From Candidatus Poribacteria bacterium (GTDB lineage Bacteria > Poribacteria > WGA-4E > WGA-3G), in contig JAJEIP010000137.1 in NCBI GenBank assembly GCA_022827885.1, positions 124,001 through 188,000 on the forward strand: a stretch of DNA of 64,000 nt, given 5' to 3'. The notes beneath the pieces are model-generated. The model was not told where the DNA came from. It saw only the letters and a list, made by a program, of their open reading frames with translations, and searched no databases. The position numbers were made by a program, and so were the translations under genes. This document shows, one piece after another, positions 10,608 to 39,097 of this stretch; within the stretch, counting starts at the first letter, position 1; each line of letters begins with the position of its first letter.

Positions 10608-11266
10608 ACCAATTTCCTTCCCATCCAGATTTAACGTGTACGGAAGTTCAGGATACCTTAGAAGCGTATCTTGGCGATGAATTGGATGCAGACACGTCGG
10701 CGACAGTCGCAGCACATGTCGCATCCTGTCCAATGTGTCAAGCTGAAGTTCGCTTCGCACAAGCAATTAGTGGCGCATTGCACGAACTTCCGAAACCAGA
10801 GCCACCGCCGGAAATCTTCAACGCCGTTGAGGCTTACGTGCGCGCACATCCCAACGAGGGCACGGGGTGGCTACATCGGATATTCCAACTGTTTACGTTC
10901 TCGAATGATTTAACTTCGATGCTCGCTCGCGCAGGTGCGGTGGCATGTCTCATCGGAGTCGTCTTGTTCGGGACCTACCAGTACCAACAGCATCTGAAAG
11001 TGCAGCAAGCCTCCCGTGACTTGGCTTATGCCCTGAGTAAGTTGAATTACGCAGTGGAGCGGACCGGCACTGTTGTTAACGAGAAACTTCCGGATGTGCG
11101 GATTGATGAAGTTTCAAGTCTTCCGTTTGTTCAGATTGAAACAGCCTCCCGTCATGTGTCAAAACAGAAAAGAAATATTTCATCGGCAATCCATCGGAGT
11201 CTGGATAGTCTTGACCGATTACCACACGGCACTCTGGATACGAAAACCGATCAACGTTCATATTAA
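10604..11266 (+). CDS. Membrane anti-sigma factor with zinc-finger domain
   Basis: A 220-residue partner that should hold the sigma factor at the membrane. The N-terminal anti-sigma domain has the HxxxCxxC motif (H38, C42, C45) with another Cys at 12. A hydrophobic segment (AGAVACLIGVVLFGTY, around residues 110-126) would cross the membrane, leaving a C-terminal region of about 95 residues outside. It overlaps the sigma gene by 4 nt and is followed 12 nt later by a DUF4252 gene, a common partner of ECF operons. Confidence 0.9.
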   Translation: MNQFPSHPDLTCTEVQDTLEAYLGDELDADTSATVAAHVASCPMCQAEVRFAQAISGALHELPKPEPPPEIFNAVEAYVRAHPNEGTGWLHRIFQLFTFSNDLTSMLARAGAVACLIGVVLFGTYQYQQHLKVQQASRDLAYALSKLNYAVERTGTVVNEKLPDVRIDEVSSLPFVQIETASRHVSKQKRNISSAIHRSLDSLDRLPHGTLDTKTDQRSY

Positions 11267-20016: not shown

Positions 20017-20958
20017 ATGAAAGCTTTAGTGAAATGCAAAGTCTATTTAATGATATCGCTTGCCACTGTGTTATTTGCAGTCGGCACAACCGCAATCGGT
20101 GATCAGACAGATGTATCCACAGAAACAACCAATCAGATAGCGAAAAAACCGACAGTCATGATTCTCGGTAGCGTGCACTTGTCGAATCCGGGAGTAGATG
20201 TCTTCAATAGAAAAATGGATGATGTCCTCGCGCCCAAACGCCAACGAGAGATTGAGCAACTCGTTACACAACTTAAGGCGTTTCAACCTACCAAAATAGC
20301 ACTTGAGTCAGATCCTTCTAAGGAAGCTGGATTTAACGCAAACTATCAAGGCTATCTGGAAGGAACATATCAACTCAAACGCGGTGAAAAAGATCAAATC
20401 GGGTTTCGGTTAGCAAAACAGATGGGACACTCGAAGGTGTACTGCGTCGATTATTGGCCAGACGAGCACCCCTTCTTCCCAAACGGTTTTGATACGGATT
20501 TGACGGACTTCCGCAAGTTCGCAAAAATCCACGGTCAAGAGCATCTCCTATCTGTCCCGCCTAAAGGTCAAATCACGAAGGATAAAGATGGCACAACTTG
20601 GATTGAACCTGAAAAATACGAACCGATAATTGATATGTACATACGCCTCAATCAACCCGAATGGAGCCGTTCAAGTCATCAGCAATATCTGCGACTGGCG
20701 CGTATTGGGTTAGACAACGCATATCCCGGTGCGAATTGGATGGCACACTGGTGGTATGATAGAGATCTCAAGATTTTTGTCAACCTAACGCGTATCACCG
20801 AATCTGCCGATGATCGAATACTGCTGGTTATTGGTGCTGGACATATCTTCCAGATTGAGCAGTTTCTTAAGGACTCGGGAGATTACATCGTTGAAAGCCC
20901 GTTGAAATACCTGAGTGCGGACGCTGCAGAGAAACCCGCATCCGAGGAAACCGATTGA
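20017..20958 (+). CDS. Secreted DUF5694 (TraB-like) protein, copy 5
   Basis: A 313-residue exported paralogue, separated from the other four by the ABC exporter pair. It has the shared leader (MKALVKC, then VLFAVGT), GSVHLSNPGVD, IALESD, GHSKVYCVDYWP and VIGAGH. It is nearest to copies 1 and 3 in subtype (VTQLKAF, YQLKRGE). It has its own ECF-type promoter of the same class as the sigma operon, which ties it to that regulon by inference. Stop is TGA. Confidence 0.82.
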   Translation: MKALVKCKVYLMISLATVLFAVGTTAIGDQTDVSTETTNQIAKKPTVMILGSVHLSNPGVDVFNRKMDDVLAPKRQREIEQLVTQLKAFQPTKIALESDPSKEAGFNANYQGYLEGTYQLKRGEKDQIGFRLAKQMGHSKVYCVDYWPDEHPFFPNGFDTDLTDFRKFAKIHGQEHLLSVPPKGQITKDKDGTTWIEPEKYEPIIDMYIRLNQPEWSRSSHQQYLRLARIGLDNAYPGANWMAHWWYDRDLKIFVNLTRITESADDRILLVIGAGHIFQIEQFLKDSGDYIVESPLKYLSADAAEKPASEETD

Positions 20959-21134
20959 GCGACTGATCTATCTAACGCGTGCTTTGCTTGTGTGGGATGT
21001 TGCTGGATGGTCCATGCAACCCTACACAAGTGATGGTAGGTTTCTCTTTTCATAGAGAAGGGCGTGTGGCATTCGCAATGATCCTCTCTACAAAAGGCGC
21101 GAGTCTCCTGAAACTAAAAACCTCATAAAAATAA

Positions 21135-21165
21135 TGCACCCTTTTTGTCTCGAAACCGCGTCATT
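21135..21165 (+). promoter_or_regulatory. Candidate ECF sigma promoter (site 4) in a 377-nt gap
   Basis: TGCACCC at 21135 and CGTC at 21159-21162 (24 nt start to start), followed by ATTAAC. It lies about 170 nt before the MacB-like permease gene. The rest of the 20959-21335 gap shows no gene; it is AT-rich before the permease. Confidence 0.5.
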
Positions 21166-21335
21166 AACAACAGAACTTACGCAAATTAAGCCGATAAAAT
21201 TAAGACAATCTTTTCGCGCCTAAATTGTATCTATAATACTTGAGAAGAAAGAACACTTTTTTACGAATACACAACACCTAAAAAATCTAATCGGGAATCA
21301 GTAAACACAGATTTCACTATAATTTGGAGAATCAA

Positions 21336-22637
21336 ATGCGTATAGTCGAAGCAGTATCCGTCGCAATTTCTGCGATGCGTAGCAACAAAATGCGTTCATT
21401 GCTGACGATGCTCGGTATTATCATCGGCATCGCTTCGGTATTAGCGATGATAGCGATTGGTGATGGTGCCAAGGCGATTGTCCGGCAAGACGCACAAAAG
21501 TTAGGTGGGGCAAATCAGTTCTTTGTGTTCCGGAGTTCGTACAAGCGTGTAAACAATCGCTGGGTCCGTATCCGCAGCAATGAATATCTGAAATATGAAG
21601 ATGTTCTAGCAATTGAGGCGGAGTGTCCAACCGTTAGTGCAGCGACGCCGCAAATCTGGAACTGGGGCGGTGTGCTCATCCAAGCTGCAGGCGGCTCTGA
21701 AGTTCGGGCAGGCTGGAATGGCGTAGATGCCACCTATAACAGTGCAATGGATTGGGACGTTAAAGAGGGACGTTTTATTACGGATGAAGACGTTAAAAAC
21801 GCATCGAAAGTTTGTGTACTTGGAGGTGATGTCGCGACCGCCTTGTTCGGTGATAAATCTCCATTGGGACAAGAAATTAAAATCGCACGCGACAGCGACT
21901 ATTACAACCGGTGGGGGCAAAAAGAGGGTAGACGGTTCACTGAACGCTTTACGGTTGTTGGCACATTCGTGCCGCGCGGTACAAGTCTACGGTTTGGTGT
22001 CAGTTTCGACAACCTCGCCTTTATTCCCATATCTACCATACAAGAACGTTTCACCGGCAATGACCAGATTCCGAACATTACAGTCTATGCACATAGCGTC
22101 AAGGAGGTTCCTAAGGCAGTTGAAGAGGTCAAAACTGTCATTCGGAAACGGCACAAAAACCAAGACGACTTCATCAGAATCTTTGAAATGCACGCCGGTA
22201 TGGCGCAGCTGGAGAAAATTAGTAAAATCATAAAAATTACCTTAGGCAGCATCGCAGGATTTTCGCTACTTGTGGGTGGGATCGGTATTATGAACATGAT
22301 GTTAGTTGCTGTCACCGAACGCACTCGTGAAATTGGACTTCGGAAGGCACTTGGTGCAAAATCTCTGGATATCCTCCTTCAGTTCCTCACAGAGGCAGTG
22401 ATTATGTGTGGTGTCGGCGGTGCCATCGGCGTTGGGTTGGGTATGCTCGCGGGTGAAGGCATGGCACTGCTCGCCGTCAAAATCGTCAGAATTGTTCCCG
22501 AATGGCCAGCGGTTATCTCCTTACAGTGGATACTGATTTCAGTATCCGTCTCAGCGATAATCGGCATCTCCTTTGGTCTGTATCCCGCCCTAAAGGCATC
22601 GTCGCTTACCCCTATTGAGGCACTTCGTAAAGCTTAG
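21336..22637 (+). CDS. MacB/FtsX-type ABC transporter permease
   Basis: A 433-residue permease of the MacB_PCD-FtsX type: an N-terminal membrane helix (MRSLLTMLGIIIGIASVLAMI), a periplasmic domain of about 220 residues, then three C-terminal helices with the conserved VGGIGIMNMMLVAVTERTREIGLRKALGA. It should pair with a separate MacB-type ATPase, but none is adjacent. I start at ATG 21336 with TTGGAGA upstream. It is paralogous to 37832-39097. Confidence 0.9.
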   Translation: MRIVEAVSVAISAMRSNKMRSLLTMLGIIIGIASVLAMIAIGDGAKAIVRQDAQKLGGANQFFVFRSSYKRVNNRWVRIRSNEYLKYEDVLAIEAECPTVSAATPQIWNWGGVLIQAAGGSEVRAGWNGVDATYNSAMDWDVKEGRFITDEDVKNASKVCVLGGDVATALFGDKSPLGQEIKIARDSDYYNRWGQKEGRRFTERFTVVGTFVPRGTSLRFGVSFDNLAFIPISTIQERFTGNDQIPNITVYAHSVKEVPKAVEEVKTVIRKRHKNQDDFIRIFEMHAGMAQLEKISKIIKITLGSIAGFSLLVGGIGIMNMMLVAVTERTREIGLRKALGAKSLDILLQFLTEAVIMCGVGGAIGVGLGMLAGEGMALLAVKIVRIVPEWPAVISLQWILISVSVSAIIGISFGLYPALKASSLTPIEALRKA

Positions 22638-22868
22638 AATTTGGAACGACAAAAATATTTATGGTAAAGCCAAAAAATAAATGGACCTTCCAATAGAGAG
22701 CAAAACGCTCCTTCCCACTGGCGAGGTTTTGCGGTGTACTCGCCTATGAGCGACGTGCATTCCTAACCTCGTCCCTTCACAATATCTCGTTAGTTGTAAA
22801 ATTTACGATAAACCCAAAAACGTAATTTTTTCTTTTTTAACGATTTTCTCACCTCTTTTGCAGAATTA

Positions 22869-22899
22869 TGCACCCTTTTTTTTCTCAGTTCGCGTCACT
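22869..22899 (+). promoter_or_regulatory. Candidate ECF sigma promoter (site 5) in a 365-nt gap
   Basis: TGCACCC at 22869 and CGTC at 22893-22896 (24 nt start to start), 107 nt before the next ABC exporter gene. I see no gene in the rest of 22638-23002. Confidence 0.5.
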
Positions 22900-23002
22900 A
22901 TAGTGTGAGGTAAATTGATAGGGTATCTTTTCACAATTTTGTAACCTTTCAAAGGGAAAAGTACCATAACAGTGACTGTTAGCGTTTAGAGGAGACAAAA
23001 CG

Positions 23003-24763
23003 TTGGAGGCATCGAAAAAGAGAGGGACTTTCGGAAGTGGCGGAATCGCTGTCCGTTTGTTAGGCTATCTCAAATCGTATTGGGGATTAGCCCTTTTGTG
23101 TGTGTTCTTCCGGGGAGGCATGCGCGCGACCTTTTTGGTCAACCCATGGATAGAAGGGCAACTTTTTGACCGTGTCTTTGGTGAGAAAGATGCCGACTTT
23201 CTGCCAATTCTTGTTGCGGGATGGATGGCTATTGCGGTCATCACCTATCTCACAGCGATTGGATCCGAGTATTTTTTGGCAAAGGTCACAGGGCGGACCC
23301 GCAGGGATATGCAACTACAAGTCTATCAACATCTGCGATTCTTACCGTGCCGTTTTTATGATGACCACACAACGGGACAGATTATGGCTTACGTCGATTC
23401 CGATACGGCATCTGCAGCTAAGGGGATTCTGGCGAGCGGATGGCTTATTCTCGCTGGAATTGAATTTGCGATTACCCTAACCGTTGTGTTCTGGGTCAAC
23501 CCATGGTTGGGCATTTTTAGCGTTCCGTTTACCTTCGCTGTGGTCGGTCTCCCAGTTCTCTTCCGAAGACCTGTCCAAAACGCTTCAAAGCAGGTCTTAC
23601 AGGAGCGGGAAAGTATTTCGTCCCGACTCCAAGAAGGCATTGCGGGATCACGGGAGATTAAATCTCTCGGGCATGAGATGCGGGATATGGGGCGCATCCG
23701 CGGTTCAATAGAAACCCTCATTCGTGCGGAAGTCCATCAAAACTTAGTCGGAAGCCTGACAGCGCTCGGTCCCCTCGCTTCTTGGGTGGGCAATCCGCTT
23801 TTCTTTCTCATCGGTGGAAAAATGGTGCTCGACGGGCACATCAGCCTCGGGTTTTTGTGGATGGCAAATCGTTATTTGAATCTGCTTACCGTTCCGCTAT
23901 ATCAAGGGCAGCATGAATATCAAACACTTCTCAGAACCGGCGAAGGCGCGAAACGGATTTTTGCGTTCCTCGACGAAAACCCAACCGAACCGACTGATGG
24001 TATTGAGGACGTTGAATTGAAGGGGCAGGTTCGGTTTGAAGCCGTTCACTTCAGCTATAACGAAAACTCGGAAGTCCTGCAGGACGTCAATTTTAAGGTG
24101 CAGCCGGGTCAAATCGCTGCGCTTGTGGGACCCAGCGGGGCAGGGAAAAGCACAATTCTCAGTCTCATTCCGCGTCTCTATACCCCTACCCAAGGACAAA
24201 TTTGTGTGGATGAACACGATATCGCGACGCTCAATCTGCGTGCCCTGCGTTCCCAGATCGGCACGGTGTTTCAAGACCCATATCTCTTCTCGGGGTCAAT
24301 TGAGGAAAACATCCGAATGGGGGCACGACACCCAGAGCGTGTGGGAGAAGAGGATATTATTGCCGCCGCCACAGCCGCAAACGCCCATGGATTTATCACG
24401 CAGCTCAACGATGGCTACGCCACGGAGATAGGTGAGCGTGGTATCAGACTCTCCGGGGGTGAGCGACAACGGATTGCGATCGCTCGTGTGCTGATGCGGA
24501 ATCCCAAACTTCTCCTTTTAGATGAAGCCACTTCCGCACTCGACTCGGAGACGGAACGGATCGTTACGGAAGCATTGGAGCGGTTGATGCGGGGAAGGAC
24601 TTCCTTCGTGATTGCACACCGATTGTCTACTGTGTTGAATGCCGATGTAATTCTCGCCATGGAGGACGGCAAAATTGTGGAGATAGGCACGCATCAGGAG
24701 TTACTCGCTCACGGCGGACTTTACGCTCGGTTGTATCGTTTACAATTTGCGGCATCCGGATAA
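23003..24763 (+). CDS. MsbA-like ABC exporter (permease plus ATPase)
   Basis: A 586-residue half-transporter likely working as a homodimer. The membrane part has about six helices. The ATPase shows GPSGAGKST, a Q-loop at FQDPYLFSGSIEENI, LSGGERQRIAIARVL and LLLDEATSALDSETE, all canonical for lipid or drug exporters. The start is a TTG at 23003 (MEASKKRG) with GAGGAG 8 nt upstream; no ATG or GTG fits better. An ECF-type promoter lies 107 nt upstream. Confidence 0.92.
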   Translation: MEASKKRGTFGSGGIAVRLLGYLKSYWGLALLCVFFRGGMRATFLVNPWIEGQLFDRVFGEKDADFLPILVAGWMAIAVITYLTAIGSEYFLAKVTGRTRRDMQLQVYQHLRFLPCRFYDDHTTGQIMAYVDSDTASAAKGILASGWLILAGIEFAITLTVVFWVNPWLGIFSVPFTFAVVGLPVLFRRPVQNASKQVLQERESISSRLQEGIAGSREIKSLGHEMRDMGRIRGSIETLIRAEVHQNLVGSLTALGPLASWVGNPLFFLIGGKMVLDGHISLGFLWMANRYLNLLTVPLYQGQHEYQTLLRTGEGAKRIFAFLDENPTEPTDGIEDVELKGQVRFEAVHFSYNENSEVLQDVNFKVQPGQIAALVGPSGAGKSTILSLIPRLYTPTQGQICVDEHDIATLNLRALRSQIGTVFQDPYLFSGSIEENIRMGARHPERVGEEDIIAAATAANAHGFITQLNDGYATEIGERGIRLSGGERQRIAIARVLMRNPKLLLLDEATSALDSETERIVTEALERLMRGRTSFVIAHRLSTVLNADVILAMEDGKIVEIGTHQELLAHGGLYARLYRLQFAASG

Positions 24764-24778
24764 GAAATAGATATTTCA

Positions 24779-24794
24779 AGAGGAGAACTCCTCT
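24779..24794. promoter_or_regulatory. Perfect 16-bp palindrome before the sigma-DnaN gene
   Basis: AGAGGAG, AA, CTCCTCT lies about 50 nt before the sigma-DnaN start and close to an AT-rich -10-like TATAAT (about 24807-24812). It could be an operator or a small hairpin; the sequence alone does not decide. Confidence 0.35.
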
Positions 24795-24846
24795 GATATA
24801 CTGTTATATAATTTCCGTTGATAAATGACTTTTCTGGAGATGTTTG

Positions 24847-26577
24847 GTGAGAAACGATAATACTGTATTGATTCAACGCATCCTCGCAGGTGACGCAACT
24901 GCCTTTGAGCATCTGGTGAGAAAGTATCAGAAACAGGTACACACGCTCGCGTGGCGGAAAATTGGGGATTTCCATATCGCCGAGGATATTACGCAGGAAA
25001 CCTTCCTGCAAGTCTATCAGAAGTTGGAAACCTTGAAGGATCCGACGCGGTTTCCAAGATGGCTTTATGTCATTGCGGATCGCCTCTGTATCGCTTGGCT
25101 CCGAAAAAACCAACGACACACCGAACCGCTGGACGACACTGACCTCTCAACAATAGAGACAGAGGCGTACTCCCAGTATATCGCCACAGAACACGCCAGA
25201 ACTTTCGCTGAAGCGCGACGCGACTTGGTGGAGGCGCTACTTGCGAAGTTAAAGGAGAACAACCGGACAACCATTACCCTTCACTACCTTGAGGGTATGA
25301 CATACGCAGAGATAAGTAACGTTTTGGGTGTATCCGAAAATACGGTTAAGAGTCGTCTCCGCCGTGCCCGGCAACACTTAAGACAGTATAAATTCATGGT
25401 TCCAGCAGCGTTGGACATCACCGTTGAAGCGAAACGTTGCTCCCGAAAACATTTGAACGGAGATTTTGGAATGAAATTAACTTTTCAAAAAGATGACCTT
25501 TTGTACCCCCTACAGATGCTGCAGGGGCTCGCGGGTGAGCAGGATACCTCACCTATGCCATCAAATGTTCTCATTCGTGCGGAAGGGAACACAGTTGAAT
25601 GCATAGCGACGGACATGGAAGTCGGTATCAGGATGAAGGTGGAAGGAACCGTTAGGGAGGAGGGGACAATCACTATCTCCGCCGAAAAATTGGGCGATAT
25701 CGTTGAAGGGTGGCCCGTTGAGAAACCGATAGATTTGGCAACGACGACAGACGGCAGAGTTGAAATCACTTGCGGGAATGACCTTTACAACATCGTCGAG
25801 CTTGCTGATGCGGAATTCCCACAACTCCCGTCTGTTGATGATGAAGCCTTGGCGATTGATGGAGACACCTTACGGTCTGTCCTTCACAAAACTGAATTTG
25901 CTGCATCCACGGATAAAGTTCGGCGGACCTTCCTAAACGGACTCTATTTTAACCTCTTTGAGGACAGAACGGAAGTCGTTGCTACGAATGGGGTACAGCT
26001 CGCCCTTGCCCATTGTGAACCCTTCGGGCTGTCTGAGGATAACGATGGGTTTATCGTCCCGCTCAAAGCCGTCAAGGGTATTGAACGAACGTTCGCTGAT
26101 TCCCCAGAGGTAAGGATTTCACGCGTTGCGAACCAGATTCTTTTTTCGGATGAGCGCACCACGTTGGCGGCGCAGTTGGTAGACGGTGAATATCCGAAGT
26201 ATGAGACACTCTTTCCAGAGGCTCCTAAGATGCGTACAGTTGTGCAGAAAGAGCCGATTTTGCGTGCGACGCGTCAAATTTCAGCGTTTTCGGATCCAAA
26301 ATGCCCTGCAATTTGTTTAGAGATAGATGAACAACAGATTCGGATTTCGCCGAGGGATTCTGACCCGGATGAGAAGCATGAAACGTTAGCGGTGGAGTCC
26401 AGCACAGGAAGCATCCGTATCGGTTTTGATGCCCGGATACTGATAGAGGCACTCACGCACATTGGAACGGAGTCCTTGGTCCTGGAGTTCACCGGTGAGT
26501 TGAAACCTGTCATTTTTAAACCGATTGGTGAGGAAGGACATATCTGCCTCATCATGCCGATGCTCTTGGAATCGTAA
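24847..26577 (+). CDS. ECF sigma factor fused to a complete DNA polymerase III sliding clamp (DnaN)
   Basis: A 576-residue chimera. Residues 1-180 are an ECF sigma: region 2 (FEHLVRKYQKQVHTLAWRK, then AEDITQETFLQVYQKL) and region 4 (LHYLEGMTYAEISNVLG, ENTVKSRLRRARQHL). After a linker of about 30 residues, residues 209-576 form a full-length beta clamp (368 residues against 366 in E. coli), with TISAEKLGDIVEGWP, VVATNGVQLALAHCE, GEYPKYETLFPEAP and a terminal LIMPMLL. Met209 (ATG 25471) has GGAG 8 nt upstream, so a stand-alone clamp may also be made. I start at GTG 24847 (GGAG 7 nt away). Two ABC-2 permease genes follow. Confidence 0.92.
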   Translation: MRNDNTVLIQRILAGDATAFEHLVRKYQKQVHTLAWRKIGDFHIAEDITQETFLQVYQKLETLKDPTRFPRWLYVIADRLCIAWLRKNQRHTEPLDDTDLSTIETEAYSQYIATEHARTFAEARRDLVEALLAKLKENNRTTITLHYLEGMTYAEISNVLGVSENTVKSRLRRARQHLRQYKFMVPAALDITVEAKRCSRKHLNGDFGMKLTFQKDDLLYPLQMLQGLAGEQDTSPMPSNVLIRAEGNTVECIATDMEVGIRMKVEGTVREEGTITISAEKLGDIVEGWPVEKPIDLATTTDGRVEITCGNDLYNIVELADAEFPQLPSVDDEALAIDGDTLRSVLHKTEFAASTDKVRRTFLNGLYFNLFEDRTEVVATNGVQLALAHCEPFGLSEDNDGFIVPLKAVKGIERTFADSPEVRISRVANQILFSDERTTLAAQLVDGEYPKYETLFPEAPKMRTVVQKEPILRATRQISAFSDPKCPAICLEIDEQQIRISPRDSDPDEKHETLAVESSTGSIRIGFDARILIEALTHIGTESLVLEFTGELKPVIFKPIGEEGHICLIMPMLLES

Positions 26578-26597
26578 ACATCTCCTAAGGAAAAACG

Positions 26598-28160
26598 ATG
26601 TTACAAACGCTGATACGCCAAGAGCTCCTGATGCATTTGATGAGTGCGCGTTTTTTTGCTGCGGTCGTCATTACACTCCTGCTTGTCGTTGCCAATACGT
26701 TTGTCTTAATCGGGGCATACGAGGAACGTCTTGCTGATTATAGCCAGAGGGAGGCGGTGAATCAAGAGAACATCGCCTCGACACCTACCTATTCGTATTT
26801 AAAATTGAAGGTTCAACGTCCGCCTAACCCGTTGAGCCTCTTTAGTGCCGGCTTAGAAACGCGTTTTGGTAGCGACCTTGACATAGCGTTTGACAGTGTG
26901 CCAGTCCTCTCAAACCCGATAGTTGATGTCAGACCTGAGGAAGAACAGTGGGCATTTGGCAGCGTCCCGTCCCTTTCAAGTCCAGGGGCACCGCTTGGTA
27001 TAAATAACCCATATCTGCATCTCTTTTCACAGATAGATCTTATCTTTGTTTTTCAGGTTGTGTTGAGTCTGATCGCCCTGCTTTTCGCTTATGACGCGAT
27101 TGCTGGAGATTGGGAAACCGGTACCTTGCGTTTGGTGCTTTCACATCCCATCGGGCGAGGAAGTGTGCTGTTTGCCAAATATATTGCGGCGATGGTTTGC
27201 CTGCTACTCCCCGTGTTGATGAGTTTATTACTCACACTGATTCAGTGCTCCTTCGCACGCTCCGTGCAATTCGGTGGAGACGATTTTCTGCGAATTGGTG
27301 GTATTGTTTTGACGACAATCGTCTATCTGTCGGTTTTCTATCTGATTGGTCTGCTCGTTTCCACAATAACCCGGCGTGCCGCTACATCCCTGATGCTCTG
27401 TATGTTTTTATGGGTAATTTTGGTGATCGTCTATCCAAATTGGAGTCGATTTGCCCTAAATCCAGAGAGGGACATACGTGCAGAAAAGAGATCCGCCGAG
27501 CAGCAGATAGCGCAAATTCGGGAAAAGGCGGATAGAGAACGACACCGGTTTTTAGCCAATAGTCCGCTGAAAGGAGAGCCTCCGATATTTTCAGATTCTG
27601 AAGCGTTTTCAGGTCTCTTTAGTGGATCCGGATATTTCTTCCTTGGGGACTTCCCTCGGGTTAACCTTGAACTGAAAGATACAGCGCACCCTTTAGTGCC
27701 ACACTTGCACCGTTATTATGAATTCGCCGCACCCCTGCAAATCCGGAATGCCGAGGAGATCGGTTTCGTCGGCCAGCGGTTAGTAGCACAGACCACCCTC
27801 CAGCAAGCACGCTGGGATGAACGTCTCATGAAGCTCAGTCCGGCAAGCCTTTATACGTTTGCCACGGCGGCGTGGGCGGGCACCGATTTAGCCAGCATGG
27901 CGGATTATATCCAAACCGCCCAGACGTATCGCCGCACCCTCATTGACACCTTTCATGAGAGAGACGCGTTCGCCAGCCAACAGTGGTTTGCCCCAAATCA
28001 AGGGGATATAGACTGGTCAATCTTGCCTCGTTTTCACTTTGAGCGAGCAGAAGTTGGCATCAACGCGCAGCGCGCCCTGCCTGAATTGTTTTTGCTGTTA
28101 TGCACCAATATCGTCCTATTCATGGCAACATTTTTGATTTTTATCAAAGTTGAAGTATAG
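26598..28160 (+). CDS. ABC-2-type transporter permease (DUF3526-like), copy 1
   Basis: A 520-residue integral membrane protein. It has an N-terminal helix (FFAAVVITLLLVVANTFVLI), then a soluble stretch, a block of about five helices around residues 145-285 containing the typical GDWETGTLRLVLSHPIGRGSVLFAKY, a long soluble part, and a last helix (LFLLLCTNIVLFMATFLIFI). It needs a partner ATPase, which is not adjacent. It begins 20 nt after the sigma-DnaN stop with AAGGA upstream, so it is probably in the same transcript. Paralogue of the next gene. Confidence 0.85.
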   Translation: MLQTLIRQELLMHLMSARFFAAVVITLLLVVANTFVLIGAYEERLADYSQREAVNQENIASTPTYSYLKLKVQRPPNPLSLFSAGLETRFGSDLDIAFDSVPVLSNPIVDVRPEEEQWAFGSVPSLSSPGAPLGINNPYLHLFSQIDLIFVFQVVLSLIALLFAYDAIAGDWETGTLRLVLSHPIGRGSVLFAKYIAAMVCLLLPVLMSLLLTLIQCSFARSVQFGGDDFLRIGGIVLTTIVYLSVFYLIGLLVSTITRRAATSLMLCMFLWVILVIVYPNWSRFALNPERDIRAEKRSAEQQIAQIREKADRERHRFLANSPLKGEPPIFSDSEAFSGLFSGSGYFFLGDFPRVNLELKDTAHPLVPHLHRYYEFAAPLQIRNAEEIGFVGQRLVAQTTLQQARWDERLMKLSPASLYTFATAAWAGTDLASMADYIQTAQTYRRTLIDTFHERDAFASQQWFAPNQGDIDWSILPRFHFERAEVGINAQRALPELFLLLCTNIVLFMATFLIFIKVEV

Positions 28161-28239
28161 AATAGTTGGTGGACTTCAGCTATCGGTTTTTAGTCAGTTT
28201 GGAGATTAGGTTCAACCGACGACTCAAGGCTCGTAAGCC

Positions 28240-28320
28240 CAACCAGCGGGCTGGATATACGGAGAGAATCGTTCATCCCGCAACTGCTCTAATCGAACCG
28301 CAAGGAATAGTAAAAAGATG
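28240..28320 (+). repeat. Dispersed start-codon repeat
   Basis: A copy of the repeat with a GGATATACGGAGA module (28251) and the terminal module GAACCGCAAGGAATAGTAAA (from 28295) that runs into the ATG at 28318. The AAGGA inside it serves as the ribosome binding site of the following permease. Confidence 0.75.
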
Positions 28321-29769
28321 ATTTGGCATATTGTCACACGCGAACTTTTAGATCATCTCACGAGTCTCCGCTTTGCCTTAACCACGTTCATCTTCGTGGC
28401 ATTAATGGTAACCAACGCCGTTGTGCATCTGCAGACCCACCCGGAACGGGTTCGGAAATATTCCGAGAAAGTCAGTGCATCCCGCGCCGAGTTGAAAGCC
28501 CGAACGGAGTTGTATGCACTGCTGCAAAAGGGACCGGGTAAACTTTACAAACGTCCCTCATCGCTTGCCTTCATCGCTGACGGAGGAGACGCATTGCTAC
28601 CGGACGAAAGTGTGAGCGGTGGGTTCTGGCGACTATACGGACTTGCCTATATTTGGTCGATGGGCGTTCCACGTCTGAATATGGAGACACTCAGCAATCA
28701 CCGCCCCACTGCCACGGTGATAGATTGGGTGTTTATCATCACGTATCTGCTCTCTTTCATTCCGCTTCTCTTCACGTTTGATGCCCTTTCAGGGGAACGG
28801 GAACGCGGGACATTGCGGCTGTGTCTTGCCAATTCCATTTCGCGTTCTGCCCTGTTAGTGGGTAAATTTCTTGGCTCTCTCATCACAGTCCTCATTGCCT
28901 TCTATTGTGCCGTGTTGTTCAATCTTGCCATCATTTCTACGGGAAGTTGGACGCAGTTTGGTGCCGTAGACTGGGGACGTGTGGGGCTTATCGTACTGAT
29001 CGCTTCTTGCTATGCTGGTATTTTCGTTGCAATTGGGCTTATCATCTCGGCGATGACACGAGAAAGTCGGTTAAGTCTCGTTCTCCTATTGCTCATCTGG
29101 GTGACTGTTGTGGTGTTTATGCCATCAACCCTCGGTACGCTCTCCACAAGATGGATGCCTCCCGTTCAAACGCACCATCAGTTTCAGAAGGCAAAAGGAG
29201 CTGCCATTGACCAAATTAGGGGCGATTTCCTGAATAAAAGGGAAGTTTTAAGAGAACGCCGTCAATCGGCAGAAACCTCGCAGAAAGAAGTGGCAGGGGT
29301 AGACACTTCAGAATTAGAGATACAGCGGGAGTTCGTCAACAAAGACATGGAGATTCGGGAACGGTTGAGCCGCCAGCATCTCGCGGCGCAAAGTGCGCAA
29401 GTCTTGCACGCAAGACGAATAACCCGATGTTCCCCTGCGGCGATTGTCCAGTATGCCCTTGAATCCATGGCGGGTACAGGCTTTAATCGCCACTTGCAAT
29501 TCTTAGAATACTGCCGTCTTCATATCCGACAGTTCCGAAACTTCGTTGTTGAAATGGATCGGGCGGATTCAGAAAGCCTTCATTTCGTTGGTGTCCGAAG
29601 AGGCATGTCGGAAAAATCTGTCTCGCCAGAGGCTATTCCGGTATTTGAGGATAAGTTAACTTTTCAAGATACCCTCAATCCTGCAATAATGGATATACTG
29701 CTGCTGGTTTTATTGCTCGGTGTAGTTCTTTCAGGGGCGTTCCTCGTTTTCCTACGTTCAGAAGTGTGA
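28318..29769 (+). CDS. ABC-2-type transporter permease (DUF3526-like), copy 2
   Basis: A 483-residue paralogue of 26598-28160 with the same plan: an N-terminal helix (FALTTFIFVALMVTNAVV), a central helix block with LSGERERGTLRLCLANSISRSALLVGKF, a soluble region rich in charged residues, and a last helix (IMDILLLVLLLGVVLSGAFLVFL). Its ATG is at the end of a dispersed repeat. The two permeases may form a heterodimer, with an ATPase coded elsewhere. Confidence 0.85.
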   Translation: MIWHIVTRELLDHLTSLRFALTTFIFVALMVTNAVVHLQTHPERVRKYSEKVSASRAELKARTELYALLQKGPGKLYKRPSSLAFIADGGDALLPDESVSGGFWRLYGLAYIWSMGVPRLNMETLSNHRPTATVIDWVFIITYLLSFIPLLFTFDALSGERERGTLRLCLANSISRSALLVGKFLGSLITVLIAFYCAVLFNLAIISTGSWTQFGAVDWGRVGLIVLIASCYAGIFVAIGLIISAMTRESRLSLVLLLLIWVTVVVFMPSTLGTLSTRWMPPVQTHHQFQKAKGAAIDQIRGDFLNKREVLRERRQSAETSQKEVAGVDTSELEIQREFVNKDMEIRERLSRQHLAAQSAQVLHARRITRCSPAAIVQYALESMAGTGFNRHLQFLEYCRLHIRQFRNFVVEMDRADSESLHFVGVRRGMSEKSVSPEAIPVFEDKLTFQDTLNPAIMDILLLVLLLGVVLSGAFLVFLRSEV

Positions 29770-29904
29770 GTTCCTGCAAGCGACCCAGCGAAAAACTACC
29801 GAAACTTGTACGACGCATATAGAGGTACAAATAATTTTTGCTTTTTTTAAACCGCCTCCCGAAAAAGTCCACTCTTTAAGGTTAAAATCAAGAGGAAACT
29901 GTTT

Positions 29905-31128
29905 ATGCGATACGATCTATCAACGCACACTATTCTAACAGATGAGGAACTCATTCGGCTTGCCCAAGCCGGTGATGAGTTGGCATTTGCAGAACTGATG
30001 TCGCGTTATAGTTCACGCATTTGGAGAGTGATTATCGCCAATTCGAGACAACCCCGCGATGCTGAAGAAATCCTCATGGATGTCTGGAGAGCCGTCTGGG
30101 AAAATATCAGCAAACTGCGGCGTGTTGAGAGTTTTAGTGGCTGGTTGCGTCGGATTGCTTACAACGCTTGCAAGCGATACTACGCTTCTGCCGGTCGTTC
30201 GGGAAACGACATTCCTTATAGTTATGCGGATTTGACGGATCGTATCGACCAAGATGCAGTTGCGCGTTTCAGGGAAACGGAACGCTACGACGCTATAAGG
30301 GAAGCCGTGCATCACCTCCCGGATAAAGTGCGCCGCGTTGCGGTCCTATACTATCTGGAATTGTGGAACGTCAAAGAGATCCACGCTGAACTCGGATTGG
30401 CGATAGGCACAATCAAGACCAAATTGAGACAGACACGTGAACTCTTACGCAAGGAGTTCGGTGTCGAACCTAAAAGAGGGAGAACCATGTCATCCAAACG
30501 AGAAGAATCCAAACGCATTCACACCAGAATCAAGGTTATTGGGGTCGGTGGCGCGGGCGGTAATGCCATTAAACGAATGATTGAAGACGGTTTGACGGAC
30601 ATTGAATTTTATACCGTGAATACAGACCAGCAAGCACTCGACAAACACCCTGAAGCAACACCGGTGCAGATCGGTGCTAACACTACCCAAGGACTTGGAT
30701 GTGGCGCGAACCCAGAGATAGGTCGAAGAGCCGCTGAAGAGGACAGGGAAACGCTCAACACCATCGTTGCGGACGCGGATATTGTCTTCGTTATAGCCGG
30801 TATGGGAGGTGGAACAGGAGCGGGTGCTTCGCCTCTGATTGCATCTCTCGCTCGGGAGCAAGGTGCTTTGGCTGTAGGTGTTGTAACCTGTCCATTCAAC
30901 TTTGAGGGTCAACGTCGCGCCGAACAAGCGAAACGTTCACTACAGGAAATTCAAGAGAATGCTGATTCTGTCGTTGTCGTGCAAAACCAGCAATTGCTCG
31001 ATTCGATAGAGCAGCAGCAGAAACTGTCAATGACAATACGCGAGGCGTTCCATCTCAGCGATGAGACGCTGCTCCGAAGTGTTGAAAGAAGCATCTCGGA
31101 ATTTCATGCCAATGCTTTGCGAAACTAA
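29905..31128 (+). CDS. ECF sigma factor fused to the N-terminal GTPase domain of FtsZ
   Basis: A 407-residue chimera. Residues 1-185 are an ECF sigma: AFAELMSRYSSRIWRVI, RDAEEILMDVWRAVWE, FSGWLRRIAYNACKRYY, and region 4 VKEIHAELGLAIGTIKTKL. From Met195 the sequence is FtsZ: GVGGAGGNA (213-221), VNTDQQAL, GMGGGTGAG (299-307, the tubulin/FtsZ signature), VVTCPFNFEGQRR, VVVQNQQLL, and REAFHLSDETLL. It stops there, so the T7 loop, the C-terminal FtsZ domain and the tail that binds FtsA/ZipA-type partners are missing. Met195 (ATG 30487) has AGAGGGAG just upstream, allowing separate translation of the FtsZ part. Start ATG 29905 with AGAGGA upstream. Confidence 0.92.
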   Translation: MRYDLSTHTILTDEELIRLAQAGDELAFAELMSRYSSRIWRVIIANSRQPRDAEEILMDVWRAVWENISKLRRVESFSGWLRRIAYNACKRYYASAGRSGNDIPYSYADLTDRIDQDAVARFRETERYDAIREAVHHLPDKVRRVAVLYYLELWNVKEIHAELGLAIGTIKTKLRQTRELLRKEFGVEPKRGRTMSSKREESKRIHTRIKVIGVGGAGGNAIKRMIEDGLTDIEFYTVNTDQQALDKHPEATPVQIGANTTQGLGCGANPEIGRRAAEEDRETLNTIVADADIVFVIAGMGGGTGAGASPLIASLAREQGALAVGVVTCPFNFEGQRRAEQAKRSLQEIQENADSVVVVQNQQLLDSIEQQQKLSMTIREAFHLSDETLLRSVERSISEFHANALRN

Positions 31129-31216
31129 TGTCGGCAGGGCAGATTTCATGCTGCAAGTTCCATGTTAATTTGAATTTATAATTAGAATAGGGGTTAACCT
31201 TTAAGAACGTTTTGAT

Positions 31217-31245
31217 GAGGATTAAGAATCAAATTCTTAATCCTC
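31217..31245 (+). terminator. Strong hairpin after the sigma-FtsZ gene
   Basis: A perfect 13-bp stem (GAGGATTAAGAAT with its complement) and a 3-nt loop, 88 nt after the stop and 54 nt before the next gene. It has no clear T-run, so termination is likely but not proven. Confidence 0.5.
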
Positions 31246-31299
31246 GTTAAATTGTGAAGTCAGTTCTCAAAGATATTCTAAATCGGAGGAAGTTCATTG

Positions 31300-33372
31300 A
31301 TGAAAAAGCCGAAGTTTACAACGGCAAAGGTTCAGGCAGCGCACGAGTATATCACAAACAAACGGATAGAACAGAAAAATTACGCGATAGTATTGCTCAT
31401 CACGCTATCGTTTACCTTAATCACAAGTTTACAAACTTCGGCAATTGAAAACACACAGACCGTCCAGAAAGAACTCCCCGCAGCCAAAACAGATCAGCCT
31501 CCCACTATTGATGGTATCCTCGACGATGCCTGCTGGCAAGACGCACCGCAAGCCATCGGTTTCACCGACGAACGGACCGAAAAACCGGCGAAGAACCAAT
31601 CGGTTGGTCGAGTCGTCTACACGGACACAGCCATCTATATTGGACTTCATCTCTACGATGATATGCCCGACAAAATTGTGGCACGCCAAACCAAAGACCA
31701 AACGCGAATCCGCGGAGAGGATTGGGTCTCCTTCAGTCTTGACCCGTTTCACACTCATCAGTTTTCAGACAGGAATTTCTTCATCGTAAATCCGCTCGGC
31801 ACCAAATACGCGCATCTCGCTACGGGACGCGCCGAGAAAAGTGAGTGGATTGGGCTATGGAAAACCGCTGCACAGATTGTAGAAGACGGATGGATTGTAG
31901 AAATGGAAATCCCTTGGCAGATGCTCGATTATCCCGATACAACCGAACCTGTTCGGATGGGTATTAACATTGACAGGCTACAACAACGCACCGGAGAACG
32001 TTCTTGGTGGTGCAACTTAGGCGTTCAAGAATTTCGGGAAAACGATGGACACTGGATTGATGTGCTACCGCCACCTCGGAAGCGTGAACTCAAAGTGTTA
32101 CCCTATCTGATTGGTGGCATCAGTGAAACGGAAACTTCTGTAGAAGCGACCTCCGGGACGCGAAGGGAATATACGGCTCGCGCGGGCGCAGATCTCCGCT
32201 ATGAGGTTACACCGCAACTGCGACTCATCGGCACAGCGAACCCGGATTTCGAGAACATCGAGCAAGCAGTAGAAGGTATCGACTTCTCCTACGGTGAACG
32301 CTATGTGCCCGATCGGAGACCTTTCTTCTCGGAAGGCGGCAATGTCTACCGCCTCGGTCGTGTGTTCCATTCGCGGCGGATAGCGGATATGGATGGCGGG
32401 ATTAAACTCTTTGGAAAAATCGGGAAAAACACCTCTGTCGGTACCTTAGGCACGTATCATCGAAACAACCAGAACGTTATCCTGCAAGCCTCTCAATCCC
32501 TAACCGCAACATCCAATATCAGCGCGGCGTTCCTTTCACATCATCACCGTGACACTGGAGCGAACAATGTAGGTTATCTTTCCGGAGATGTACGCCACGG
32601 TAAACTTTCAGTCGGTTCCAGTCTCATCCAAACTTCGGCGGGCGAATCGGACGGAAGGAATGGGTTCGTCAGTTTAGGCTACAACGGACCGCTTTTTCAA
32701 CCCTACCTGTCCGTATTTTTTGTGGATCCAGATTTCATCAATAGACTCGGTTACCGTCCTTTCACCGGCTACCGCGGCGTAGGTTTGGGTAGTTTCATCA
32801 AAAACGAATGGCGTGAAGGATTCTTCCGTAGAGTATCTGCTTCTATCGAAAGCCAGATATCTGATACTTACGACGGTGAAGTTTTCAGGCGTTACTTTTA
32901 TGTGTCTTCACTTATCCTAACGCATAGTGACTACGCACTTGCGGCTGGCTGGAGAGGCGGACAATTTGAAGAATTCAACGACAGTATTTTCAGCGTTGGA
33001 TTCCGTGCGCGTGCTTCCGACAGGTTCAACAATGTTGGTATTACCTACAATTGGGGTGAGCAGGCAGGCGAGACGATTCATCGCATCAGCGGAAATCTAA
33101 ATCTCCAAGCCTACGGTTTCACCGCAGGACTCTCCTCACAAATCCAGTGGCACTTTGAGAGACGTTACCAACAGATATTCACCCTCACTTATGATTTCAG
33201 TCCCGCCTTAAGTCTCGGCAGTCGCCTCATCTGGCAAGTAGAAGGCATTAATATCTACTTCGCATTGCGCCGCTCTGGTTATGCTGGCACCGATTTTTTC
33301 ATCATCCTCGGCGACCCAAACGCTTTAGAATTCAAACAGCGTTTCGTTGCTAAGGTGATCCGCGCGTTTTAA
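31300..33372 (+). CDS. Exported CBM9-like / DUF5916 protein
   Basis: A 690-residue protein. An N-terminal hydrophobic segment (YAIVLLITLSFTLITSL, about residues 30-46) acts as signal or anchor after an unusually long charged N terminus. Residues about 65-230 form a carbohydrate-binding-module-9-like domain (PTIDGILDDACWQDAPQ, VVYTDTAIYIGLHLYDD, GWIVEMEIPWQML). The rest is DUF5916, probably a beta-barrel: PDRRPFFSEGG, then repeated aromatic strands to the end. This family is usually linked to outer membranes. I use ATG 31300 with CGGAGGAAG upstream. Confidence 0.85.
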   Translation: MKKPKFTTAKVQAAHEYITNKRIEQKNYAIVLLITLSFTLITSLQTSAIENTQTVQKELPAAKTDQPPTIDGILDDACWQDAPQAIGFTDERTEKPAKNQSVGRVVYTDTAIYIGLHLYDDMPDKIVARQTKDQTRIRGEDWVSFSLDPFHTHQFSDRNFFIVNPLGTKYAHLATGRAEKSEWIGLWKTAAQIVEDGWIVEMEIPWQMLDYPDTTEPVRMGINIDRLQQRTGERSWWCNLGVQEFRENDGHWIDVLPPPRKRELKVLPYLIGGISETETSVEATSGTRREYTARAGADLRYEVTPQLRLIGTANPDFENIEQAVEGIDFSYGERYVPDRRPFFSEGGNVYRLGRVFHSRRIADMDGGIKLFGKIGKNTSVGTLGTYHRNNQNVILQASQSLTATSNISAAFLSHHHRDTGANNVGYLSGDVRHGKLSVGSSLIQTSAGESDGRNGFVSLGYNGPLFQPYLSVFFVDPDFINRLGYRPFTGYRGVGLGSFIKNEWREGFFRRVSASIESQISDTYDGEVFRRYFYVSSLILTHSDYALAAGWRGGQFEEFNDSIFSVGFRARASDRFNNVGITYNWGEQAGETIHRISGNLNLQAYGFTAGLSSQIQWHFERRYQQIFTLTYDFSPALSLGSRLIWQVEGINIYFALRRSGYAGTDFFIILGDPNALEFKQRFVAKVIRAF

Positions 33373-36135: not shown

Positions 36136-37821
36136 GTGGAAAGAGAAGACGATGTCCAACTAATCCGCAAAATTTTATCGGGCGACGACGCGGCGTTTAG
36201 CATCTTGGTCGAAAAGTACCAAAAGAGCGTTCATGCACTGGCATGGCGGAAGATCCAAGATTTTCACTATGCGGAGGAAATTATGCAGGATACCTTCCTG
36301 AGGGCATACAGAAAACTGCCGACCCTCAAGAATCCCGAGCAATTTGCGGGGTGGCTCCATGTTATCGCAAATCGACTTTGCATTGATTGGATGCGAAGCC
36401 AAAAGTCTGTGATGCAATCGTTGGAGGATACACCTGTTGAAGAGGTTGAGGAGTCCTCTTATACACATCATATATCGGAACAGCGAATGACAGAGAGAAC
36501 CGAGCATTACCATGAACTTGTGAAAAGACTGTTGGAAAAACTGCCAGAGAAGGAACGCGCCGTTGTAACACTCTATTATCTTGACGAAATGTCAACAAGA
36601 GAGATCGGCAGATTCATGGGAGTGTCGGTGAATACAATTACGAGTCGACTCCACCGCGCTCGGAAGCGTCTGCAAACAGATCCAGAATTCTTTGGTCATT
36701 TACAACTATCAGATAATTTGAAGGAGAACGTCATGAGTCAATTAGAAGAAATTCGCAGCAAGTTCAATGCATTCATGGAAAAAGTGAAAGCTGACCCCGC
36801 ATCAAGAGAGGATATTCTTAAGGAAGCACACAACGAGATTGAAGCTGCACTTAAGGATGGAATCACACCTGAGTTGGTCCATCTTGCTGCCGATGATATA
36901 TACCCCTATATGGGCAAACTCGGCATGGAAAAACGGATATCTCTACTCCGTAAGTATATGGATGAGACTTCAGAGGATACAGAGCGTTTCTGGGCGCATG
37001 ACGGGTTGGTCTATAGTCTCGCTTTTCTTGAAAGAAATCGAGAGGCTGTTGAAGAACACGCTCGGCTTTACCAGTGGACGTGTCGGCACTTGCCAGATAA
37101 ATATGTGTTGGAAATTGCTTCTAATCTGAGCGTCTCTGAATGTTGGACAGCGGAAGGTCGTATTGATGACTGGATTCAACTTTATAATGAAGTCTCTCAA
37201 CGCTTAGAGAACCCCGGCGTGGATTACTACAGCCGTTGCGGGTTTTTGCAAACCGGAGCAGATGTCTTACGATGCAACAACAGGTTCGATGAAGCACTCC
37301 TTGAAATAGAAAAGTTGGAACGTGCGAACAACGAACCCGGTTCGGAGCATTATTTTCACTTCTGGTTGACTGCGAAAGAGAATCGACTGCTCGTGTATGG
37401 TAAACAGGAAGATTGGAATCGTTTTGATCAAGTCTTTACGGAAGTGAATGCGTATCTGGAAGGAGAGTTGAAGAAACGGGATGCAGGTCATCCTGTAAAT
37501 CTTGACCACCTTATGTGGTTTACGCATGATTTCGGTTGTTGTTTGTTGTGGTTGAAGAAGTATGACGAGGCGAAACGGTTCCTACAGATCACCATTGATT
37601 TGGAAGATAACAACCATTATGGTCACTTCCAACTCGCTGTAAGCATCTGGGCTTCTGAGAAGGATCGAGAAAAGACTTTACACCATTTAAAGATCGCTCA
37701 GAACTACTATGTGGTGAATTGGTATAATCGGGATACCTACTATCCAACTTTCCTTGAAACCCCTGAATTCTCGGATGTCAAGGATGATCCAGAGTTTCTG
37801 AAGGTTCTGGGACAGACATAG
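36136..37821 (+). CDS. ECF sigma factor fused to a helical-repeat (TPR-like) domain
   Basis: A 561-residue chimera. Residues 1-180 are an ECF sigma close to that of the sigma-DnaN gene (FSILVEKYQKSVHALAWRK, AEEIMQDTFLRAYRKL, region 4 STREIGRFMG, NTITSRLHRARKRL). Residues 200-561 repeat the helical domain of 34767-35942, with homology beginning exactly at Met200. That Met (ATG 36733) has AAGGAG 6 nt upstream, again a ribosome binding site at the junction. The start is GTG 36136 with GAGGAGG upstream. The downstream MacB-like permease starts 10 nt after the stop. Confidence 0.9.
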   Translation: MEREDDVQLIRKILSGDDAAFSILVEKYQKSVHALAWRKIQDFHYAEEIMQDTFLRAYRKLPTLKNPEQFAGWLHVIANRLCIDWMRSQKSVMQSLEDTPVEEVEESSYTHHISEQRMTERTEHYHELVKRLLEKLPEKERAVVTLYYLDEMSTREIGRFMGVSVNTITSRLHRARKRLQTDPEFFGHLQLSDNLKENVMSQLEEIRSKFNAFMEKVKADPASREDILKEAHNEIEAALKDGITPELVHLAADDIYPYMGKLGMEKRISLLRKYMDETSEDTERFWAHDGLVYSLAFLERNREAVEEHARLYQWTCRHLPDKYVLEIASNLSVSECWTAEGRIDDWIQLYNEVSQRLENPGVDYYSRCGFLQTGADVLRCNNRFDEALLEIEKLERANNEPGSEHYFHFWLTAKENRLLVYGKQEDWNRFDQVFTEVNAYLEGELKKRDAGHPVNLDHLMWFTHDFGCCLLWLKKYDEAKRFLQITIDLEDNNHYGHFQLAVSIWASEKDREKTLHHLKIAQNYYVVNWYNRDTYYPTFLETPEFSDVKDDPEFLKVLGQT

Positions 37822-37831
37822 GGCAAGACTC

Positions 37832-39097
37832 ATGAAACTTCGTGATGCTATCCTCGCAGGTGTAAAGCCTCTCACGCAGAATAAACTCCGGGCAGGATTG
37901 TCCATTCTCGGCATCTTCATCGGGATTGCGGGGGTGTTGTGCATGATCGCTATCGGCGATGGTGCGAAACGTATCATCGCGCAAAACCTTGAAATGATGG
38001 GGGGTGCCAATCAAATCGCATTCTATACACGGACGACTATTTGGAAAGGTCCTCGGCTTGCCCGACGCACGACGGAGCGATATACCCTTGAGGACGCTTC
38101 TGCAGTTGAAGCAGAATGCCCCGATGTGCTGTACGTCTTGCCTAAAGTGGAAGACTTCAACACCTTTGTTAGCAGCCGAAACGGAAATCAAGCGAAAACG
38201 CGTTTAGAAGGTATCACCACAGACTATGCCCTCGGCATGGGATGGAAAGTTCACGCCGGTAGATTCTTTTCCGACAGCGATATCGAAAATGCGAAGCAGG
38301 TCTGTGTCTTGGGTGCTAACACCGCCAGTGAACTTTTTGGAAAGACATCCCCCATCGGACAAGAGGTGAAGGTTCGGTATCATTGGCGGCAATCGCAGAT
38401 TCGGTTACGGGTTATCGGGGTGATGGCAACAAAAGGCATGAGCCTCAGTGATACGTATTCTTTGGATGATGCGATTTCTGTGCCTTTGACAACCTATCAG
38501 CAACGGGTGAAGGGTTTTCGTTATGTTGACTACCTGCTCGTCTTTTTTAGAAAAGGGGCAGAGATGGACAGTATTATTAATTCTGTTAAAAGCACGCTGC
38601 GTAAAAGACACCGAGGGAAAGATGAGTTTATCGGCGTTTGGATAGCGAAATTGACGGCTCACCGACTTTTCCACATTCAAAAAGTGATAAAAATCACCTT
38701 GGGCAGCATTGCGGGTTTCTCGCTGTTCGTCAGCGGTGTCGGCATCATGAATATCTGTCTCGTCTCTGTCGGTGAAAAGACACGAGAGATAGGTTTACGG
38801 AGATCCGTGGGTGCGAGGCGAATTCACATTTTTTGCCAATTTTTGACGGAATCGATCTGTCTCTGTTTATGCGGTGGGGTGCTCGGCATCGCCGGCGGTT
38901 GGGCTGCAGCAAACGGGATGGCATGGCTTGCCGTGCGGATTGTGCCAATTGTAGAGGCGTGGCCCGTCGTCCTCTCCTTTCCGTGGGCACTCACTTCCGT
39001 CATTTTCTCGATTGTCATGGGTGTGGGTTTCGGGGTCTATCCAGCACTGCGGGCAGCACAACTTTCACCCGTCGACGCGCTCCACACTGAGAATTAA
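37832..39097 (+). CDS. MacB/FtsX-type ABC transporter permease
   Basis: A 421-residue paralogue of 21336-22637: an N-terminal helix (LRAGLSILGIFIGIAGVLCMI), a periplasmic domain, then C-terminal helices with VSGVGIMNICLVSVGEKTREIGLRRSVGAR. No ATPase gene is adjacent. It begins 10 nt after the sigma-TPR stop, so the two are probably one operon under site 8. Confidence 0.9.
   Translation: MKLRDAILAGVKPLTQNKLRAGLSILGIFIGIAGVLCMIAIGDGAKRIIAQNLEMMGGANQIAFYTRTTIWKGPRLARRTTERYTLEDASAVEAECPDVLYVLPKVEDFNTFVSSRNGNQAKTRLEGITTDYALGMGWKVHAGRFFSDSDIENAKQVCVLGANTASELFGKTSPIGQEVKVRYHWRQSQIRLRVIGVMATKGMSLSDTYSLDDAISVPLTTYQQRVKGFRYVDYLLVFFRKGAEMDSIINSVKSTLRKRHRGKDEFIGVWIAKLTAHRLFHIQKVIKITLGSIAGFSLFVSGVGIMNICLVSVGEKTREIGLRRSVGARRIHIFCQFLTESICLCLCGGVLGIAGGWAAANGMAWLAVRIVPIVEAWPVVLSFPWALTSVIFSIVMGVGFGVYPALRAAQLSPVDALHTEN

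Follow-up and report, generated by a model that had tools for sequence, protein, structure and literature searches.

Regulatory extensions that act in cis have precedent among ECF sigma factors in which a long C-terminal domain follows the sigma2-sigma4 core and is expected to exert control in cis, and in which no anti-sigma gene adjoins (PMC8999054). Reviews of ECF extensions mention neither a sliding clamp nor FtsZ (PMC8999054, PMC8103513). Phage T4 late transcription (gp55, gp45 and gp33) offers a known case of physical linkage between a sigma-family protein and a sliding clamp: the clamp activates by tethering RNA polymerase, and clamp-binding motifs provide a non-covalent link to a ring that is intact and loaded; other cases are expected by the authors of that work (PMC7892883). 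Spare DnaN copies are known as well, GriR and MypR being free clamps encoded in biosynthetic clusters.

Within a 64,000-nucleotide stretch of Candidatus Poribacteria DNA (the window) lies a gene in which an ECF sigma factor is joined to a DnaN clamp. Its product shares with the extended ECF factors the sigma2-sigma4 core, the long C-terminal domain and the lack of an adjoining anti-sigma gene, and differs from them in what was captured: no clamp or FtsZ is found among theirs (PMC8999054), whereas here a whole housekeeping protein was taken up with its own start signals, twice. Unlike the T4 assembly, the Poribacteria protein has its sigma factor attached covalently, N-terminal to the clamp, with region 4 present and the ring sites lost. 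Compared with the bacterial DnaN beta clamp, the fused copy has the same three domains and the same fold, but shows losses at dimer and DNA-facing positions and a higher dN/dS, carries the sigma factor, and exists beside two normal clamps. Like GriR and MypR it is an additional clamp, possibly in a drug context; unlike them it has a joined regulator. No description of ECF-clamp, ECF-FtsZ or MerR-clamp fusions, or of Poribacteria ECF factors, was found in the open-licence literature, which does not in itself prove novelty but agrees with the initial annotation, to which no described ECF group with a clamp partner was known. A sigma factor covalently coupled to a replication clamp, and next door to FtsZ, likewise has no earlier description that we could find in that literature.

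Architecture and distribution of the fusion

The gene is a single open frame without interruption that encodes an ECF sigma factor and a three-domain DnaN-type clamp (Table 1). Pfam identifies sigma2 and sigma4 in the first half, without sigma3 domains, and the TIGR00663 dnaN model matches the second half over positions 1-365 of 367 with a score above the model cut-off. Both results bear out the original reading of one uninterrupted frame that joins ECF regions 2 and 4 to a clamp of normal length, and the extra C-terminal domain is conserved in the same frame. An AlphaFold model of the single chain, built from 30 sequences (mean pLDDT 79.6, pTM 0.60), shows a pair of helical sigma domains separated from the clamp by a disordered linker (residues 185-206); because the pTM is low, the placement of the sigma domains relative to the clamp is not given by the model. 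When this model was used as a Foldseek query, bacterial clamps ranked top, with a TM of ∼0.9 by target length. The sigma factor is held to the clamp covalently and not by the T4 type of contact through a sliding-clamp-binding motif. A candidate motif of this kind in the linker (IQEALDI) was discarded because the same residues occur in ECF factors fused to HTH domains.

Table 1. Coordinates of the sigma-clamp gene, its parts and its surroundings (window positions, except where a locus in a relative is named)
Feature	Position	Strand	Remarks
Second ECF-type promoter-like site, TGCACC...CGTCATT	21135-21165	+	precedes MacB-like permease gene; also in L034, L037
MacB_PCD/FtsX-type permease	21324-22637	+	probable target gene
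ECF-type promoter-like site, TGCACC-N18-CGTCACT	22869-22899	+	precedes MsbA-like and sigma-clamp genes
MsbA-like ABC exporter	23003-24763	+	directly upstream of fusion, same strand, probably same operon
ECF sigma-clamp fusion gene	24847-26577	+	576 aa; GTG start, GGAG upstream
Sigma region 2	24913-25116	+	residues 23-90; Pfam PF04542 Sigma70_r2, 6.3e-15
Sigma region 4	25222-25380	+	residues 126-178; Pfam PF08281 Sigma70_r4_2, 2.1e-18
Linker	25390-25470	+	residues 182-208; AlphaFold low confidence, pLDDT <50 at 185-206
Internal Shine-Dalgarno GGAG (25459-25462) and ATG (25471-25473) of original clamp gene	25459-25473	+	inside fusion frame
Clamp domain I	25471-25830	+	residues 209-328; PF00712, 4.8e-19
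Clamp domain II	25855-26199	+	residues 337-451; PF02767, 8e-20; best conserved clamp domain in clade A fusions
Clamp domain III	26206-26562	+	residues 454-572; PF02768, 4.1e-14; missing in four relatives
Two ABC-2 family permease genes (26598-28160, 28318-29769)	26598-29769	+	20 nt downstream of fusion
ECF sigma-FtsZ fusion	29905-31128	+	407 aa; FtsZ GTPase domain only
Short variants without clamp domain III	L160:5258-6625, L161:5103-6479, L162:4834-6207, L042:7992-9374		

The closest-matching records for the fusion are Candidatus Poribacteria genomes. A search of related genomes for the same architecture, as had been proposed, found it at full length in 29 of 84 Poribacteria genomes. The window's genus accounts for 26 of these (among 38 genomes) and a sister genus for 3 (among 18), and two further genomes of the sister genus have a split or contig-cut copy. 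Carriers include single-contig chromosomes (G081, G082) and records titled as chromosomes (OX639992.1, OX638352.1). The full-length copies of the 29 genomes have no internal stops and are in frame at the join throughout. Since the same fusion recurs in 29 genomes, several of them single-contig, an assembly error or a frameshift at the join is ruled out. The two observations that the initial annotation had named as fatal to its reading, a stop or frameshift at the join and absence of the fusion from all close relatives, were thus not made in these genomes. One relative (G037) has a sigma-clamp gene broken by a frameshift (L169:5133-6873). No record in phage and plasmid collections covers 80% of the fusion protein, and an origin from either was rejected on that basis.

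Besides the fusion, the window's genome encodes two stand-alone clamps (366 and 370 aa, on contigs C113 and C50), each with all three domains. A check for a second, separate dnaN near dnaA had been proposed; the gene exists in two copies, dnaA lies on another contig (C81), and in complete relatives no stand-alone clamp is near dnaA (in G082, dnaA is at 2.35 Mb and the clamps are at 1.06 and 4.49 Mb). The idea that the fusion replaces a sole dnaN was rejected given the two stand-alone genes, which by their sequences are intact and remain available for replication. Genomes with two to four stand-alone clamp genes are frequent in Poribacteria; some of these genes stand in tandem, and they lie far from dnaA (L171, L215, L216, L226-L229).

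Two lineages of fused clamps

In the clamp tree, fused clamps occupy two places. Clade A has 37 rows, among them the window's copy, and clade B has four, with clade B nested among the stand-alone clamps of one lineage and its own branch supported at 100/100. A single clade of all fused clamps, a group that was named after the tree had been seen, is rejected with a p-AU of 0.004. The sigma halves of the two clades fall into well separated ECF groups, and those of clade B belong to the group that is fused to FtsZ, including the FtsZ fusion in the window. Taken together, the clamp tree, the p-AU test and the separate ECF groups indicate that the sigma-clamp fusion arose at least twice, from different clamp lineages and different ECF groups. 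The clade B fusion is present in eight genomes of the genus, complete in seven and interrupted in the eighth (G077), and none of the genomes with it has a full-length clade A fusion. A fusion of either origin is found in 34 of the 38 genomes of the genus. That it arose twice in a single genus suggests that it is of selective benefit. Short variants of 455-460 aa end after clamp domain II (L042/L163, L160, L161, L162); these four are monophyletic and under purifying selection.

Rates of protein evolution were compared as Nei-Gojobori medians over pairs with dS of 0.15-1 (68 pairs for the stand-alone clamps). Median dN/dS is 0.13 in the sigma half and in stand-alone clamps, 0.28 in the fused clamps of clade A and 0.27 in those of clade B. 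By domain, the clade A values are 0.27, 0.19 and 0.40 for domains I, II and III, as compared to 0.06, 0.14 and 0.17 in stand-alone clamps. By this measure both halves and all clamp domains of the fusion are under purifying selection, with domains I and III, which make the dimer contact, relaxed in clade A and domain II hardly so.

Loss of conserved positions was scored over the 121 columns that 49 stand-alone clamps from Poribacteria conserve. Clade A has lost 26 of these and clade B 34, with 15 common to both (hypergeometric p 3e-4), and 11 of the 15 fall in a zone that covers the dimer interface (Fisher p 9e-5). Kinship of the sequences means that these p values overstate the evidence; that two independent lineages agree carries more weight. 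The zone is what we take to be the interface of the E. coli structure (residues 71-82, 94-111, 264-276 and 296-305), numbered on what is presumably the E. coli clamp sequence, whose 366 aa equal the length of the PDB chain. Jointly lost positions include R96, L272, L273 and G300 at the dimer interface and R24 and K73 facing the DNA. In E. coli beta, alanine at both I272 and L273 yields a monomer (PMC3022782). Measured against the stand-alone consensus, the window protein differs at 27 of the 121 columns, as compared to 0 and 2 for the two stand-alone clamps of its own genome, and its changes include R24Q, K73E, L272A and G300D, the last present in 32 of 32 clade A copies. The fusion lineages do not have the dimer interface of the organism's own clamps, although the window copy retains part of it, with Y106, I108, a hydrophobic F273, K74, E301 and E304. 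Given the uniform G300D of clade A, the interface may also have been rebuilt. Neither DNA-facing basic residue (R24, R/K73) is kept in the window copy. The net charge of the six inner helices was dropped as a test of DNA binding because the stand-alone Poribacteria clamps are not basic there either. In the peptide-binding pocket, clade A keeps the hydrophobic core (L155, L177, P242, P346) and varies at G174, M362 and P363, clade B has its pocket residues intact, and the short forms are without half of the pocket.

The start signals of the original clamp gene also persist inside the fusion frame. An anti-Shine-Dalgarno match of at least 4 nt precedes the original clamp ATG, suitably spaced, in 42 of 43 fusions, against a background of 16% at other ATGs; 27 of 43 have a match of 5 nt or more, against 2.9%. 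The glycine codons that form the internal box are the most codon-conserved of 25 glycine columns (GGA in 33/34 and 25/25), and the clade B fusions have AAGGAGG at this site. Stand-alone clamp genes have a similar box, as do sigma-HTH and sigma-FtsZ fusions at their joins. Conservation of this Shine-Dalgarno-ATG pair makes it likely that translation also initiates internally and that a free clamp domain is made.

Promoter-like sites, neighbours and other ECF fusions

A motif of the form TGCACC-N15-19-CGTCAYT stands upstream of nearly all clade A fusions, directly so in most, with TGCAT or TGCACA at the -35 position in a few relatives. Seven sites occur in the window's own genome as compared to none for a reversed control, and those not listed in Table 1 precede other ECF fusions. 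These sites look like an ECF promoter and suggest that the fusion is autoregulated. The -10-like element of the fusion's promoter falls within an imperfect palindrome (22890-22905, GTCACTATAGTG) that could be an operator. Across 22 fusion loci, ABC-2 genes are present at 14 and MacB genes at 12, and MacB also adjoins three clade B fusions. ABC-2 neighbours are common beside the genome's other ECF fusions too, and thus mark the ECF family and not the clamp. A Pfam search of the neighbouring proteins at 20017-33372 found no anti-sigma factor.

The ECF-FtsZ fusion downstream (Table 1), which is conserved in almost every genome of the genus, follows the same building plan as the sigma-clamp gene and has a similar but weaker start signal at its join; it differs in its ECF group and in having an FtsZ GTPase domain in place of the clamp. 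A second copy, with a complete FtsZ, is encoded on contig C16 (L124:3292-4962, 556 aa), and relatives carry ECF-FtsZ versions in open frames of ∼1350-1450 aa.

In selected stretches of the genome, a survey found ∼34 ECF genes with long, mutually unrelated C-terminal extensions, which include a membrane segment with a large ectodomain, redoxin, M61 peptidase, HTH, FtsZ and the clamp. On this evidence the lineage has a habit of acquiring C-terminal domains, and the sigma-clamp protein is one outcome of that habit. Individual cases are a redoxin-type domain (L103:3052-4962), an M61 peptidase (L099:3198-6203) and a BNR/sortilin-like propeller (L122:2927-5824). Two ECF factors in tandem, extended by a coiled coil and an ArsR-like HTH (L095:2473-4065 and L095:4430-5605), have GGAG..ATG at the join, an adjoining ABC-2 permease pair and a TGCACC...CGTCATT site each. 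Elsewhere in the window, an ECF factor at 36136-37821 has a 380-residue C-terminal extension without a Pfam match, with a MacB-like permease gene (37832-39097) immediately after it, and at 10062-11266 a short ECF factor precedes a gene with a cysteine motif (HVASCPMC) typical of zinc-binding anti-sigma factors.

Possible roles of the clamp half

We consider it somewhat probable that the fusion is an autoregulated ECF sigma factor with a captured and repurposed DnaN clamp as its in-cis regulatory domain. The sigma half would bring RNA polymerase to the operon that encodes it and to genes for ABC transporters. Rather than running on DNA, the clamp half would serve in cis as a sensor, its retained surface binding a partner that could be a protein with a clamp-binding motif, a stand-alone clamp or a clamp-attacking compound, and such binding would free or mask the sigma domains. 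The free clamp domain from the internal start could act in trans as a competitor or anti-sigma factor. To judge from its residues, the clamp half has lost the marks of a ring while its fold, its domain II and the greater part of its peptide-binding pocket persist, and the loss of dimer and DNA-facing sites makes a built-in sensor more likely than a replication-driven transcription machine. Points against an in-cis sensor are the uninformative ABC-2 neighbours, the pocket only partly retained in clade A and by half absent from the short forms, and Y106 and F273 in the window copy.

The initial annotation had proposed a mechanism like that of T4 gp55 and gp45; its architecture, clamp length and novelty stand, and this mechanism is unsupported. 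As a replication-coupled factor, the fusion would form a ring placed on DNA by the clamp loader, with sigma as a mobile enhancer, in the manner of gp45 with gp55 and gp33. The full-length clamp fold, with its TM of ∼0.9 to solved clamps, and the mostly kept pocket would suit such a role, N-terminally tagged clamps are among the solved structures (SMT3 fusion 6p81), and in addition to the T4 precedent for activation by clamp tethering, clamp-VP16 fusions work in vitro (PMC7892883). Yet dimer and DNA-facing sites were lost convergently in two independent fusions, the four substitutions of the window protein named above are among those losses, domains I and III are relaxed, and four conserved relatives do without domain III, all of which makes a loaded ring quite unlikely. 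To our knowledge there is no cellular clamp-driven sigma factor, and if the fusion were loaded on DNA, against the evidence, it would be the first known.

A special case of the sensor reading takes the clamp half, and the adjoining FtsZ half, as a decoy for antibiotics: a compound that binds the mimicked target would switch on sigma and thereby the ABC exporters. Both housekeeping proteins captured in the survey, DnaN and FtsZ, are inhibitor targets, FtsZ being well known as one. Clamp-targeting natural products and the spare DnaN self-resistance genes griR and mypR have been described (PMC10817943), exporter-type genes and promoter-like sites adjoin the fusion, and clade B has its pocket intact. 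Against these stand the varying pocket of clade A and the half pocket of the short forms, the ABC-2 neighbours shared with other ECF fusions, and the fact that no compound or gene cluster has been identified, and we regard a drug-target mimic as unlikely. The gene might instead serve mainly to supply an extra clamp from the internal start, the in-frame link to sigma being a by-product of gene capture. Conservation of the Shine-Dalgarno-ATG pair in both lineages is what such a two-product gene would show, but every complete copy maintains the open frame through the linker, the clamp part is relaxed with its ring sites lost, and the short forms keep the internal start although they are incapable of making a clamp; this explanation appears very unlikely.

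Returning to the in-cis sensor, a clamp domain that senses replication or clamp-directed compounds would represent a new class of intracellular sensor. While Poribacteria are uncultured, the fusion protein and its promoter can still be tested in E. coli. More tentatively, and with appreciable doubt, Poribacteria may possess one-component sigma factors of a class whose sensors are captured copies of cell-cycle proteins, DnaN at least twice and FtsZ in several forms, with a free sensor domain made from the same mRNA by internal initiation. Such factors would make the transcription of ABC-transporter operons depend on how replication and division stand, or on compounds directed against the captured proteins.
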